The notes under the pieces were generated by a model that saw only the letters and a list, made by a program, of their open reading frames with translations, was not told the origin of the DNA and made no database searches. 64,000 bases of DNA from Marinifilum sp. D737. Lineage in GTDB: Bacteria > Bacteroidota > Bacteroidia > Bacteroidales > Marinifilaceae. A program made the position numbers and the translations under genes. This document shows, piece after piece, positions 937 through 45,467 of this stretch (position 1 is the first letter of the stretch; every line of letters starts with the position of its first letter). The stretch spans positions 62,001 through 126,000 of the forward strand of contig NZ_JANQCD010000004.1 in NCBI RefSeq assembly GCF_026672275.1, in the 5' to 3' direction.

Positions 937-1842
937 ATGGATAACAAAAGTTTAGTATCGATCGACGACTACACAAAAGAAGAAATTCTGGAAGTATTAG
1001 CCAGAGCTGCCGAATTCGAAAAAAATCCAAACTGCAACCTATTGGAAGGTAAAGTTGTTGCTTCGCTTTTTTTCGAGCCATCTACTCGTACTCGACTAAG
1101 TTTCGAAACTGCTATTAGCAGAATGGGTGGTAAGATTGTAGGATTTACCGATTCCTCTTCGTCAAGTGTTACCAAAGGTGAAACTTTGAAAGATACCACC
1201 AAAATGGTAAGTAATTATTGCGACTTGGTGGTTATGCGCCATCCAATTGAAGGGTCAGCTCGCTATGCTTCCGAAGTATCCGATGTTCCGGTAATCAATG
1301 CAGGTGATGGAGCAAATCAGCATCCTACACAAACCATGCTTGACCTTTACTCAATTTACAAAACACAAGGAACTCTGGAAAACCTTAACATCTTTATGGT
1401 AGGAGATTTAAAATACGGACGTACCGTTCACTCCTTGTTAATGGCGATGTCGCATTTTAACCCAACCTTCCACTTTATTGCTCCAAAAGAATTGGAAATT
1501 CCTTTGGCGTACAAGATTTTCATGAACAAGAACAACATTAAATATCATGAACACACCGAGTTCAACGACATCATTAATGATGCTGATATCTTGTACATGA
1601 CTCGTGTTCAGCGTGAGCGCTTTGCCGATCCGTTGGAGTATGAGAAAGTGAAGAATGTGTACATCCTAAAGAATGATATGCTTGAGAATACCAGAGATAA
1701 CCTGAAAATTCTTCATCCACTTCCAAGAGTAAACGAAATTGCTGTTGATGTAGATGAAAATCCTAAAGCATACTATTTCCAACAAGCTCTTAATGGTGTC
1801 TATGCACGACAGGCAATTATTGCAAAGGCTCTTGATTTATAA
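937..1842 (+). CDS. pyrB: Aspartate carbamoyltransferase, catalytic subunit
   Basis: PyrB catalyses the committed step of pyrimidine synthesis, carbamoyl phosphate plus aspartate to N-carbamoyl-aspartate, in the cytosol. The 301 residues carry the carbamoyl-phosphate loop FEPSTRTR (46-53), HPTQT (129-133), the [10 protein letters not shown] segment (about 157-166) and the aspartate-site HPLPR (260-264). Length and motifs are those of a full catalytic chain. pyrI follows after 33 bases, so the two are co-transcribed and should form the allosteric c6r6 holoenzyme. Expression is probably set by the attenuator in the leader. Confidence 0.97.
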
Positions 1843-2428: not shown

Positions 2429-3088
2429 ATGATACAAAATATAGAAGAGTTTAGAGAGTTGATTTCTGCTGCAATAGAGAATGGACAAAATGGAAAAATT
2501 AAGGCTTGTAAATCAGCTTTGCGCAATATTTATTCCTCCATTAAGAATAATCCTTTTCTGCTATGGGAAGACTCTTATGTATCTCAATTGGGTAAAGCAA
2601 TTATCATGATGATTCATTGGGATATGATTGATGATGAAGACGAAAATATTGGATTGGCTCACCTTGCATATTTATATATTAGCAAGGCAATTGAAAAAGA
2701 AGAAAACATACAGCCAGAAAGTGATAAATGCGAACTTTTTCGTTTAAGAAAGGACCGAATTATCATCATGAAAAGCTTCGATGATTTCTTCGTAGAGAGT
2801 TTACAAAACTTCTATTTCGCAGATAATAAAGCCACCGATCTGGATACCTACAACGAGCAAAGAAAAGCTGTTCTAAGCCGTTTGCCTTTTATGCAATTTT
2901 CAGATATCTACCTAATTGAACAAGATTATCCAAACCTACGTGATGATGAGTTTCTTTTGGAGTTGGCAAATATGATTGAACACGATCAGGAATTTACCAA
3001 TGAAAACTTAAATGAAGCCTTTCTACTTCATAAAATACTGTATAAATTCACCTATGAGGAATTGAAAAAAGGAGAATTCGTTTATTAA
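2429..3088 (+). CDS. Hypothetical protein, 219 aa, mostly helical
   Basis: I do not recognise a family. The protein has no signal peptide and no membrane segment, so it should be cytosolic. It is rich in Glu, Asp and Lys, with long predicted helices throughout. It has its own -7 element (2393-2400) and a terminator (3111-3137), so it is a single-gene unit between pyrBI and a flavoprotein gene. Coding status is supported by the long open frame and the flanking signals. Confidence 0.8.
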   Translation: MIQNIEEFRELISAAIENGQNGKIKACKSALRNIYSSIKNNPFLLWEDSYVSQLGKAIIMMIHWDMIDDEDENIGLAHLAYLYISKAIEKEENIQPESDKCELFRLRKDRIIIMKSFDDFFVESLQNFYFADNKATDLDTYNEQRKAVLSRLPFMQFSDIYLIEQDYPNLRDDEFLLELANMIEHDQEFTNENLNEAFLLHKILYKFTYEELKKGEFVY

Positions 3089-3110
3089 TAAAGCTGATGT
3101 ACTAGAATAC

Positions 3111-3137
3111 AGAGACGTAAATTCATACGTCTCTTTT
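3111..3137 (+). terminator. Intrinsic terminator
   Basis: AGAGACGTA (3111-3119) and TACGTCTCT (3126-3134) form a perfect 9-bp stem followed by T residues, 22 bases after the stop of the 219-aa gene. Confidence 0.85.
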
Positions 3138-3333
3138 TGTATACAGCAAGTTCATTTCATAAAAAAAGACTTTTTTATCTGCAAAACATATCATTAGTTA
3201 CTGAAGTTGAATTTTTCTTTCTATCTTAATGCTTTAAATGCATAGGTGTATATAAAATCGCTGAGTTTTTCCTATGTGAGGTTGGATTGCAAACAAAATA
3301 TTATCAGCAAAAAACAATAAACAACAGCATTTT

Positions 3334-4854
3334 ATGAGTATAGAAAAATACGACCTTGTTGTATTGGGAAGTGGTCCTGCAGGCTTCTCGGCAGCAATGC
3401 GTGCAATTGATTTTGGCAAATCTGTTTGTCTTATCGAGGCACAACATCTTGGTGGAGCTGGAATTATGAACGGAGCTCTTACCTCAAAAGCAATGTGGGA
3501 ACTATCCAGAGACTATTCCATTGCCTCATCAGTAATGAGGGGGTACCGAGCATCTGGTTTGAATGTTGATTACAAGCAGGTACAAAAAACCATTATGCAA
3601 GCAGCTAAACAAAAGCAATTGCAAATGCTTTCTCAGATTGAAACCTATGCAGAACCAACTGAAAAGTTTGGAAATATCACTTTAAAGTATGGTTGGGGAA
3701 AATTTATCGATTCGCATACAGTAGAGGTTAAATCTGCAAAAAATACAGAGCTTGTTCATGGTGATAACTTTATTATTGCAACGGGATCGAGACCACGCCC
3801 AATGCCTGATGTTGAAATTGATCAGGAAAGAATTATTGATTCGGAAGGAATTATGAATCTAAAAGAATTTCCTGAAAGGATGATTATTTTAGGTTCGGGG
3901 ATTATTGGTTGTGAATTCGCTACCATTTTCTCCAATTACAATCAAACAGAAGTACACCTACTCGACCGACAGCACAAGGTAATTCCATACGAAGATGATG
4001 ATTTAAGTAGCTTTGTGTCGAGAAATCTTGAGAATAATGGTGTAATTATCCACCATACAGCTAACTTAAGATGCATTAGAAAACGACCAGATTTTCTGGA
4101 AGTAGTGCTTGATTACCAGGATGGCCATTCAAAAGTAATTGAAGTAGACGTTGCGTTGGTAGCCATTGGTAGAATTCCAAATCTTGACAATATCGGTCTT
4201 GAAAATGTAGGTATTGAAAGAACCGACCGAGGTTATTTGAATATCAATGAGGTTTGTGCAACCGACGACTTTAAGGCATGTAATATTTTTGCTGCAGGTG
4301 ATGTTTCAGGTCACGCACAGCTCTATTCCGTAGGTGAACTACAGGGAAGATATATTGTGGAAGCATTGTATGGAAATCTGGATTATCCGTTAGACTATTC
4401 CAACATGTCTACTTTAATGTTCTTTAAGCCCGAAGTTGCTGCAGTTGGATTAAACGAAAAAGCTTGCCAAAAAAGAGACATACCTTATAAAGTTGCTACC
4501 TACTCAAATTCACTAATAAACAGAGCTATTGCCATGAGAGCAGTTGATGGTTTTATTAAAATTATTGTTAGTGATGACGGTAATGATCGAATTCTAGGAA
4601 TGAGAGCAGCTGGTCCACAGGCCTCTACATTAATTACTTCCATAGCCTACCAAATCACTCAAAAAGGAACCTTAAAAGACATCCGACAAAATGTTCATCC
4701 ACACCCAAGTATTAGTGAAGGAGTACAGGAATGTTTAAGGGTTTTCGAGGAAAAATCGATATACAAACCCAAAGCGTTTCCAGATTTGATAAAATTGAAA
4801 AGCTGGAAACCTGAGAAGGTAAAAGAAGCAAAAAACAACACCCCAAATAGCTGA
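3334..4854 (+). CDS. FAD/NAD(P)-dependent oxidoreductase of the disulfide-reductase family, lacking the redox disulfide
   Basis: The 506-residue protein has the layout of dihydrolipoyl dehydrogenase and soluble transhydrogenase: FAD-binding GSGPAG (12-17), an NAD-binding GSGIIGCEF in the middle, the FAD motif FAAGDVSG, and a dimerisation domain with HPHPSISE near the C-terminus (455-462). Where active members have GGTCxxxxC, this one has GGAGIMNGALTSK (40-52), so both redox cysteines are replaced by Gly and Ala. It cannot run disulfide chemistry. A transhydrogenase-like or other flavin role is possible, since soluble transhydrogenases also lack the pair. It is a single-gene unit. Confidence 0.88.
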   Translation: MSIEKYDLVVLGSGPAGFSAAMRAIDFGKSVCLIEAQHLGGAGIMNGALTSKAMWELSRDYSIASSVMRGYRASGLNVDYKQVQKTIMQAAKQKQLQMLSQIETYAEPTEKFGNITLKYGWGKFIDSHTVEVKSAKNTELVHGDNFIIATGSRPRPMPDVEIDQERIIDSEGIMNLKEFPERMIILGSGIIGCEFATIFSNYNQTEVHLLDRQHKVIPYEDDDLSSFVSRNLENNGVIIHHTANLRCIRKRPDFLEVVLDYQDGHSKVIEVDVALVAIGRIPNLDNIGLENVGIERTDRGYLNINEVCATDDFKACNIFAAGDVSGHAQLYSVGELQGRYIVEALYGNLDYPLDYSNMSTLMFFKPEVAAVGLNEKACQKRDIPYKVATYSNSLINRAIAMRAVDGFIKIIVSDDGNDRILGMRAAGPQASTLITSIAYQITQKGTLKDIRQNVHPHPSISEGVQECLRVFEEKSIYKPKAFPDLIKLKSWKPEKVKEAKNNTPNS

Positions 4855-44050: not shown

Positions 44051-44314
44051 ATGAATATTTTATTGGAACAAGGCTGGAGTGAAATAGATAGTAAGCTGAT
44101 TAAAAATTACGTGTTATCTGATTTTACCCATGCCATTAAATTTATCAATCTTATTGCCGAAGATGCCGAAAAAGTTGATCATCATCCTGACATTAAACTG
44201 TATAAATACAAAAATGTCAGAGTAACATTAACAACTCACTCCAAACGAAGAATCACCGAGAAAGACATTTCGTTAGCCAAGCAGATTGATAAGATATTTG
44301 ATTCAATTAATTAA
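44051..44314 (+). CDS. 4a-hydroxytetrahydrobiopterin dehydratase
   Basis: The 87-residue protein has the PCD signature VDHHPDIKLYKYKNVRVTLTTH and ends ITEKDISLAKQID. The enzyme regenerates the pterin cofactor of aromatic amino acid hydroxylases. Its place next to pheA fits a link with phenylalanine metabolism, though no hydroxylase gene is in the window. It is convergent with pheA and separated by only 2 bases. Confidence 0.93.
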   Translation: MNILLEQGWSEIDSKLIKNYVLSDFTHAIKFINLIAEDAEKVDHHPDIKLYKYKNVRVTLTTHSKRRITEKDISLAKQIDKIFDSIN

Positions 44315-44316
44315 CT

Positions 44317-45156
44317 TTATCGAATTTCAATGCCCTTATTGTATGTCCCTAAAATTTGCATTCCTCTAACCTTTTGAGAAATCATATTCATTGCATTTTT
44401 AAATTGCATTGGAGCTTTAAATTCCAAATCGACATGAAAGAAATATTGCCAATTCTCACCAGGAATTGGATGAGATTGGATTTTAGAAAGGTTTATACCC
44501 TCTTGAGCAAAACAATCTAAAATATACGATAAACTACCAGGTTCATGATTTGTACTAAAGTATAGCGAAGCCTTTGTAAATCCACCATTAACACCAACAT
44601 CTTTTTGTCTTTTCAGCAAGAAAAATCGAGTTTGATTATTCTTGATACTTTCAATTGCCTCCTCCAAAATCTCTAAATCGTAGAGCTTAGCAGGTAAATC
44701 ACCAGCAATTGCACCTACACCATGTAGTTCATTATCACGAATATTTTTAGCACTTAATGCTGTATCTTCCATCTCTACCAATCTGATATGTGGATATTGA
44801 CGAAAAAATGCCCTACACTGATTGATAGCCATTGGATGAGAATGAACCTCTTTTAAATCTTCAATTTTCTGTCCCGGCAATGCCATCAAGTTTTGCTTAA
44901 CTCGTAAAAAGATCTCTCCTTCCACAACAAGACCTGAATCTTGTAACAAGCCATAATTTTGTAAAATACTTCCAGCAATTGAATTCTCAATGGCCATTAT
45001 TCCTGCATCGCAAACACTTTCATCATTAACAAGGTCAACAAGCTTGGCAAAATTTTCAGCTGGAATAATTTCTACATCCTCACCATAATATGCATTTGCC
45101 GCGATGTGATGGAAACAACCTTCCACTCCTTGAATAACAATTCTTCTCTTGTCCAT
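44317..45156 (-). CDS. pheA: Prephenate dehydratase
   Basis: PheA converts prephenate to phenylpyruvate, the committed step to phenylalanine. The 279 residues form a stand-alone prephenate dehydratase (no chorismate mutase part). The catalytic TRF motif is at 176-178 (NNQTRFFLL). The C-terminal ACT domain (about 190-279) carries EPGSLSYIL and QSHP in place of the ESRP motif that binds Phe. The gene is preceded by a leader with two Phe-rich ORFs and two terminators, so it should be controlled by phenylalanine supply through attenuation. Confidence 0.94.
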   Translation of the reverse strand: MDKRRIVIQGVEGCFHHIAANAYYGEDVEIIPAENFAKLVDLVNDESVCDAGIMAIENSIAGSILQNYGLLQDSGLVVEGEIFLRVKQNLMALPGQKIEDLKEVHSHPMAINQCRAFFRQYPHIRLVEMEDTALSAKNIRDNELHGVGAIAGDLPAKLYDLEILEEAIESIKNNQTRFFLLKRQKDVGVNGGFTKASLYFSTNHEPGSLSYILDCFAQEGINLSKIQSHPIPGENWQYFFHVDLEFKAPMQFKNAMNMISQKVRGMQILGTYNKGIEIR

Positions 45157-45184: not shown

Positions 45185-45212
45185 AAAAAAAAAGTCCTGA
45201 ATAATCAGGACT
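45185..45212 (-). terminator. Second attenuator terminator upstream of pheA
   Basis: AGTCCTGA (45193-45200) and TCAGGACT (45205-45212) form an 8-bp stem. On the minus strand a run of T follows (plus-strand A 45185-45193). A competing pairing of AGAATCCTG (45244-45252) with CAGGACTCT (45206-45214), 9 bp with one wobble, would prevent it. It lies 29 bases before the pheA start. Confidence 0.85.
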
Positions 45213-45252
45213 CTCTTTTAATGCATTTGTAATTTAAACCATTAGAATCCTG
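45206..45252 (-). promoter_or_regulatory. Antiterminator pairing of the second pheA attenuator
   Basis: Minus-strand CAGGATTCT (45252-45244) and AGAGTCCTG (45214-45206) can pair over nine bases with one G-U. The first half lies in the leader ORF after its Phe codons, so a ribosome stalled on Phe would leave it free, while one reaching the stop codon would cover it. Confidence 0.6.
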
Positions 45253-45314
45253 TCCTTCTCGTCTCCAAAAAAGAAAAAGCTAAAAAAGAAGCTAAAGGAA
45301 AATATGGTTCTCAT
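45234..45314 (-). CDS. Second Phe-rich leader peptide of pheA (26 codons)
   Basis: The ORF reads MRTIFSFSFFFSFFFF and continues GDEKDRILMV. Nine of residues 5-16 are Phe. It begins 8 bases after the T-run of the first terminator and its stop is 22 bases before the second terminator stem. Such a density of one amino acid before a terminator is the hallmark of ribosome-mediated attenuation, as in pheL of enteric bacteria. Confidence 0.8.
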   Translation of the reverse strand: MRTIFSFSFFFSFFFFGDEKDRILMV

Positions 45315-45322
45315 CGTATCGT

Positions 45323-45351
45323 AAAAAAAAAGAGCCTTTCGAAAAAGGCTC
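45323..45351 (-). terminator. First attenuator terminator upstream of pheA
   Basis: On the minus strand GAGCCTTT, tetraloop TTCG, AAAGGCTC is followed by nine T (plus-strand positions 45332-45351 and A-run 45323-45331). It is a very stable intrinsic terminator placed between the two leader ORFs. Confidence 0.88.
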
Positions 45352-45382
45352 AGTTAATATTTTATATCACACAAAACCTCTT
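45343..45382 (-). promoter_or_regulatory. Antiterminator pairing of the first pheA attenuator
   Basis: Minus-strand AAGAGGTTT (45382-45374) can pair with GAGCCTTTT (45351-45343), nine base pairs including three wobbles, destroying the terminator stem. The overlapping TTTTGTGTGA (45376-45367) can instead pair with TCACACAAA in the leader ORF (45424-45416), giving the classical 1:2, 2:3, 3:4 set. Confidence 0.5.
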
Positions 45383-45387
45383 CAGCA

Positions 45388-45435
45388 CTACATGCTAAAA
45401 AAGAAAAAAAATCGATTTGTGTGAACTCTATTCAT
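45388..45435 (-). CDS. First Phe-rich leader peptide of pheA (15 codons)
   Basis: The ORF encodes MNRVHTNRFFFFFSM, with five consecutive Phe codons (45411-45397). It lies about 20 bases after the predicted transcription start and 37 bases before the first terminator stem. A ribosome stalled at the Phe codons would mask TCACACAAA and free the downstream segment for antitermination. Confidence 0.82.
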   Translation of the reverse strand: MNRVHTNRFFFFFSM

Positions 45436-45459
45436 TGTTTGTAAATCATTTGTACAGCT

Positions 45460-45467
45460 CAAAGTTA
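45460..45467 (-). promoter_or_regulatory. -7 promoter element of the pheA leader
   Basis: On the minus strand this is TAACTTTG, identical to the uvrA -7 element. Transcription would begin near 45453-45455, just before the first leader ORF. No -33 TTTG box is seen. Confidence 0.55.

Follow-up and report, generated by a model that had tools for sequence, protein, structure and literature searches.

On the minus strand of the window, by which we mean the entire 64,000-nucleotide stretch of Marinifilum sp. D737 DNA that was analysed, pheA is preceded by a promoter element, leader 1, terminator 1, leader 2 and terminator 2, in this order as judged from the sequence and from our leader-unit detector (Table 1). 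The promoter element conforms to TAnnTTTG, which we take to be the Bacteroidota -7 promoter consensus, and no further copy of this motif was present ahead of unit 2 in the pheA leader of the window. For the 5' arm of terminator 1 there is an alternative partner, an antiterminator segment located 3' of the Phe codons of leader 1 (the competing pairing of AAGAGGTTT with GAGCCTTTT, 9 bp). The 5' arm of terminator 2, AGAGTCCTG, can likewise pair over 9 bp with CAGGATTCT, which lies inside leader 2. A simple terminator scan gave terminator 1 on the minus strand and the hairpin of terminator 2 only on the plus strand; the call of terminator 2 on the minus strand is that of our own detector, not of the simple scan. 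Directly 3' of pheA, the downstream scan found no co-directional ORF of at least 90 aa. The end of pheA and that of a convergent gene for a pterin carbinolamine dehydratase on the opposite strand are two bases apart.

Table 1. Coordinates of the pheA leader and neighbouring genes in the window, and of the leaders of other amino-acid operons in the same genome.
Feature	Position	Strand	Basis
Promoter element TAnnTTTG, TAACTTTG	45460..45467	-	sequence
Leader peptide 1, MNRVHTNRFFFFFSM, 15 codons, five consecutive Phe codons	45388..45435	-	sequence, detector
Terminator 1 stem-loop, 8 pairs, loop of 4	45332..45351	-	simple terminator scan, detector
Nine-T run behind terminator 1 stem	45331-45323	-	
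Leader peptide 2, MRTIFSFSFFFSFFFFGDEKDRILMV, 26 codons, nine Phe within 12 residues	45234..45314	-	sequence, detector
Terminator 2 stem-loop	about 45193..45214, T run to 45185	-	own detector
pheA, prephenate dehydratase, regulated gene	44317..45156	-	PF00800, E 1.3e-51
Pterin carbinolamine dehydratase gene	44051 to about 44314-44317	+	PF01329
Tyrosine operon, tandem attenuator	L227 (G000:C46), about 3063-3351, reversed coordinates	-	detector
ilvD, tandem Ile/Val/Leu leaders	L234 (G000:C41), 1000-1294		detector
hisG, single His leader MKFIALHHRHHHFTYPQVS	L231	-	
trpE, single Trp leader with WWW	L227, 5693-5835	+	

The detector calls a unit where a Phe/Tyr-rich ORF is followed by an intrinsic terminator. 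Applied to the 400 bases upstream of pheA in the window it returned two units, and among 500 dinucleotide shuffles of the same bases 497 contained no unit, three contained one and none contained two. The two-unit anatomy that the first-pass annotation had described upstream of pheA was recovered exactly by sequence and detector, and the shuffles exclude a chance origin. Among pheA loci that had 400 or more bases of upstream sequence, a unit was found in 182 of 217 regions (a set that includes five copies of other loci), whereas none of 651 shuffles and none of the 217 reverse complements of these regions contained one. One unit was counted in 131 regions, two in 50, three in one and none in 35, the last number being an upper bound because several of these loci are truncated and others visibly have a leader; the latter start with GTG, have a weaker terminator or precede a gene whose start was misplaced. 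In the window, each unit has a short ORF rich in Phe codons, one intrinsic terminator between the ORF and the gene, and, according to stalled-ribosome folding and a shuffle test, a competing antiterminator that stalling would free.

When a ribosome was placed in a stalled position on the Phe codons and the 3' arm of the terminator was not yet made, the antiterminator was the predicted structure in both units of the window, with energies of -12.0 to -15.4 kcal/mol in unit 1 and -11.2 to -18.9 kcal/mol in unit 2. The competing 9-bp pairings proposed earlier for both terminators are present in the sequence. A ribosome positioned on the stop codon left the terminator as the sole fold in both units. 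After inclusion of the 3' arm, the minimum-energy fold was again the terminator, at each of three stall positions in unit 2 and with the stall at the first Phe codon in unit 1, indicating that the order of folding matters. The pairing between segments 2 and 3 that forms the antiterminator was better than in shuffled sequences in the window (p 0.01 in unit 1 and 0.02 in unit 2 with the loop included; p 0.06 and 0.03, respectively, in a narrower test with a shorter terminator segment). Across loci, p<=0.05 was reached with the loop included by 111/130 single, 40/47 first and 42/47 second units, and in the narrower test by 118/131, 33/47 and 40/47, respectively; 7/47 first units, six of them in genus label g11, and 5/47 second units failed the shuffle test. 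The pairing between segments 1 and 2, which is weak as a test, reached p<=0.05 in 42/131 single, 12/47 first and 11/47 second units.

In 16 aligned sequences of the Marinifilum group, the helices tested were kept with 90 to 98% of cells paired and little variation. The 2:3 helix of unit 2 was 97% paired, and a single pair had changes in both partners (a value reached by 65 of 500 shuffles); for the helix of unit 1 in these close relatives, the covariation score was reached by 21 of 500 shuffles and the number of doubly changed pairs by 431 of 500. Covariation was generally weak among the 16 close relatives; terminator 2 stood out, with 3 of 500 shuffles scoring as high. Since compensatory changes in close relatives are few, structural support comes mainly from distant loci and from the shuffles. 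In the same alignment, both Phe runs were kept while the N-termini of the leader peptides varied, which supports the earlier proposal of two Phe attenuator units in series. The alignment that had been suggested as a check confirmed the conservation of the Phe runs and yielded few of the compensatory stem changes.

Near unit 1, TAnnTTTG was detected in 32 of 48 tandem pheA loci (a count that takes in L031, whose pair with a gap of 365 is probably spurious) and was not found in the remaining 16, and near unit 2 it was detected in 0 of 48; single-unit pheA leaders had the motif in 89 of 130 cases. Occurrence of the motif ahead of unit 1 alone suggests that both units are part of a common transcript. 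The distance between terminator 1 and leader 2 was 14 to 30 bases in 31 of 48 tandems. In five relatives with the label g11 (L045, L047-L050), 103-226 bases separate terminator 1 from leader 2, also without TAnnTTTG, and this inter-unit stretch has apparent repeated segments and an inverted repeat. At 16 loci, for example the single-unit loci L012 and L016, the ATG of the leader is at most 9 bases from the end of TAnnTTTG, so that the leader mRNA would be nearly leaderless.

The survey covered 221 pheA loci: 35 from named genome contigs, 30 from the window's family (56 genomes, 35 with a match), the best-scoring 127 new loci from its order (392 genomes, 183 with a match) and the best 29 new ones from the phylum (296 genomes, 258 with a match). 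Copies of other loci (L006, L007, L037-L039) and loci with too little upstream sequence were left out, and the family table additionally leaves out L008-L035, which carry no family label, and includes L073 and L051 with labels assigned by hand. A single Phe/Tyr unit was present at 112 of the 188 family-labelled loci, a tandem at 49 and no unit at 25, with two further loci being truncated. Among the Bacteroidota sampled, pheA is usually, and not just rarely, preceded by a Phe/Tyr leader. Of the 56 family labels, 14 included tandem leaders; within the family of the window, 28 of 32 loci, that of the window counted, were tandem, three single and one truncated. On a quick PheA tree (179 rows, some long branches), the tandem label needs 16 changes compared to 41 in shuffles, and 10 of the 16 are forced by well-supported branches; the tandem state thus appears clustered on this tree and yet gained or lost many times. 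PheA of the Marinifilum group is placed apart from the other PheA sequences of its family, and transfer of pheA together with its leader is therefore possible. Two loci, L035 and L025, stem from Victivallales and Lentisphaeria metagenome bins. Both have a hairpin and a T run, judged by eye, and L035 also has a Phe/Tyr-rich short ORF, MKTVRYYRYDFAFRFSG, at pheA, so the design may extend outside Bacteroidota.

The codons of the leaders varied with the genes downstream of pheA, which were classed with an ORF cut-off of 90 aa and assigned to clusters identified by Pfam from six members. Leaders free of Tyr codons were found at 0 of 146 loci where pheA was accompanied by tyrosine-branch genes (aminotransferase, DAHP synthase or prephenate dehydrogenase), at 19 of 25 loci where pheA stands alone with no ORF of 90 aa behind it (17 of these 25 belong to the Marinifilum group), and at 1 of 5 loci with another downstream gene. 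Family means differed as well (51 vs 7, p 1.4e-4). On the PheA tree there were few independent contrasts (n=6), of which a mean of 3.6 agreed with a match between codons and operon, none opposed it and 2.4 showed no difference, with a median p of 0.125 in the sign test. Within tandems, the Tyr shares of unit 1 and unit 2 were correlated (rho 0.80, n=42). In the genome of the window, pheA stands alone behind Phe-only leaders and the tyrosine genes reside in another operon. From these sequence comparisons, the leader codons appear to match the products of the operons.

This separate operon comprises genes for an aminotransferase, tyrA, DAHP synthase/chorismate mutase and aroB, and is preceded by the tandem leaders MKTVSTYISNFYYFWFYFYPTR and MSNKAFTYRFYFYYFWFNTNRAGCLIP, which are rich in Phe, Tyr and Trp codons. 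The tandem was found at 18/18 Marinifilum-group loci, with a Trp codon in both leaders of each, and TAnnTTTG was located ahead of unit 1 in 17/17 and ahead of unit 2 in 0/17 loci tested. A third tandem precedes ilvD, giving three operons with tandems in the window's genome (pheA, the tyrosine operon and ilvD). At 30 ilvD loci of the family, the detector found two Ile/Val/Leu units in 21 (20 by judgement, with L294 discounted for an implausible first leader), one in seven and none in two, and a unit in 0 of 300 shuffles; TAnnTTTG was uninformative, with 1/21 ahead of unit 1 and 1/21 ahead of unit 2. In the ilvD leader of the window's genome, Leu codons occur in the run of unit 1 and are absent from that of unit 2. 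Single leaders precede hisG and trpE, and for pheS the detector reported no leader.

We consider it highly probable that two ribosome-mediated transcription attenuators, each of them complete, are arranged in series along the pheA transcript. RNA polymerase would start near 45455. With ample charged tRNA-Phe, the ribosome would complete leader 1 and mask the segment 3' of the Phe codons, allowing terminator 1 to form and transcription to end near 45323. When Phe is scarce, a ribosome stalled on the Phe run would leave this segment free to pair with the 5' arm of terminator 1, resulting in read-through. A polymerase that has passed terminator 1 would then transcribe leader 2, and terminator 2 would repeat the same choice, so that only transcripts extending past both terminators would reach pheA. 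Because both units would read the same signal, their escape probabilities should multiply, which would lower the basal leak and make the response to Phe shortage steeper. This model builds on sequence and comparison: the ordered parts, a promoter motif that occurs once, pairings that compete, conserved elements and leader codons that match the operon; stalling, termination in vivo and the steeper, AND-like response are what we infer from them.

A possible, though rather unlikely, variant is that the two units set two thresholds and do not form a simple AND gate, with a weaker unit 1 that has fewer codons and a more sensitive unit 2 together producing a graded response. Five versus nine Phe codons and terminator stems of -9.7 kcal/mol in unit 1 versus -13.7 kcal/mol in unit 2 of the window would fit such an arrangement, as would the mean numbers of regulatory codons in 47 tandems (7.0 in first and 8.8 in second units, p 6e-6). 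However, the difference fades when family means are compared (14 families; p 0.07 for codons and 0.46 for terminator energy), and fewer codons in unit 1 were therefore not retained as a rule. As both units must still be passed, two thresholds would represent a refinement of the series model.

It is improbable that one unit alone regulates pheA and that the other is a decaying relic of a duplication or an operon rearrangement. Single units are the commonest state of pheA leaders (112/188), hence one unit is enough for many species, and in L051 leader 2 has ATA in place of the ATG of its relatives. Nevertheless, both leaders and both terminators, and mostly the antiterminators too, were kept across the Marinifilum group, and two units are present at three operons of one genome. 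In addition, units 1 and 2 were no recognisable copies of each other in 18 of 20 representatives; recent copying of one unit to give the other was recognisable only in the two remaining loci, both labelled f106. We regard it as still less probable that leader RNAs released by termination, or the peptides encoded in the leaders, act in trans, with termination serving small-RNA production. A trans-acting attenuator leader peptide has been reported from Sinorhizobium (PMC7298713), but the elements conserved here are those expected for control in cis, and the codon content tracks the adjacent operon. It is very improbable that the T-rich tracts are conserved for a poly-U stretch in the RNA, such as a site of pausing, slippage or protein binding, instead of for Phe codons. 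The runs are indeed rich in TTT and almost invariant in nucleotides among close relatives, but are in-frame mixtures of Phe and Tyr codons when pheA is accompanied by tyrosine genes and mostly Phe-only at stand-alone pheA.

Returning to two attenuators in series, the presence of the doubled design in relatives and before two other operons suggests that doubling of attenuators is a general means of tightening control over amino-acid pathways. For the wider proposal, that in Bacteroidales leader-peptide attenuators for the same signal in series are a general and repeatedly evolved design of amino-acid operons, we see even chances. Such a design would comprise three operons in one genome and, for pheA, 14 family labels, with a single promoter, codons tuned to the product and a U tract of terminator 1 that doubles as the translation start region of leader 2, and would provide a near-digital response with very low leak. 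T-boxes, riboswitches and one operon for macrolide resistance already provide examples of units in series for the same signal; here the arrangement would serve the sensing of amino-acid starvation, with adjacent units before one gene and in several pathways. If confirmed, the leader would represent a naturally occurring attenuator of several stages, with gain and leak measurable for each unit. Likewise, amino-acid attenuation would be widespread in the sampled Bacteroidota and readable from the leader codons, which would then aid prediction of the product of an operon.

Ribosome-mediated transcription attenuation by leader peptides is well established for enteric pheA, pheST, trp and his. The window resembles these systems in having short ORFs with regulated codons, competing antiterminators and intrinsic terminators before a biosynthetic gene, and differs from them by two complete units in series and by the Bacteroidota promoter motif. 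In a scan of the window, all Rfam families stayed below their gathering scores, and no T-box or riboswitch was recognisable; unit 1 matched Phe_leader (RF01859) with 30 bits (E 0.0045), which is below the gathering score of 55. Single pheA leaders in Bacteroidota may have been predicted by Lopatovskaya in 2010, a work referenced in PMC4833913. According to another publication of the same year, no leader-peptide system was known outside Proteobacteria and Actinobacteria before the authors' own case from Firmicutes, the ermC leader aside (PMC2965389). For Flavobacteriaceae, structured 5' elements before pheA and hisG were described, the pheA element being without an Rfam hit, and strong clues for leader-peptide attenuation ahead of amino-acid operons were reported for Flavobacterium in 2021 (PMC9723704). 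Phylum and gene are the same as here, and the passages considered describe neither a tandem nor a match between codons and operon (PMC9723704). In a published model of attenuation, sensitivity depends on how many regulatory codons there are; the terms tandem, series and cooperat are absent from that paper (PMC1183508).

Several known systems combine two leaders or two sensing units. In Salmonella, the mgtCBR operon is preceded by two successive leader ORFs, similar to the arrangement in the window, but these respond additively to two signals, ATP and proline, and the authors state that structures resembling intrinsic terminators are absent (PMC3641672). In contrast, both units of the window are Phe-rich, pointing to the same amino acid, and both have predicted intrinsic terminators. 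As both leaders are Phe-rich and the Tyr shares of the units correlate across 42 tandems, the leaders are probably not of the mgtCBR type. Two leader peptides for one signal are also found at ermB, where both ermBL and ermBL2 are required for induction by erythromycin; however, this is translational attenuation and not termination of transcription (PMC8274638). Tandem T-boxes and tandem riboswitches for a single ligand likewise place units for the same signal in series, and a pseudo-cooperative, digital-like response is expected for them, but there the RNA directly senses the ligand or tRNA, whereas in the window the sensor would be the translating ribosome (PMC12452182).

Among the literature matches listed, mostly outside subscription journals, there was no tandem of leader-peptide attenuators for the same amino acid. 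In the mefA/msrD system, two transcription attenuators with the leader peptides MefAL and MsrDL respond to the same signal on one transcript, an arrangement described by the authors as a 'double lock' on basal expression (PMC10314930). The parts of the pheA leader are classical, and a pair of attenuators for one signal is already published outside amino-acid control. Two ribosome-mediated transcription attenuators, one signal and one transcript are what mefA/msrD shares with the arrangement proposed here (PMC10314930). The signal of mefA/msrD, however, is a macrolide, its units precede two different genes and they have no runs of regulatory codons, whereas in the window both units are adjacent before one gene and the signal would be an amino acid (PMC10314930).
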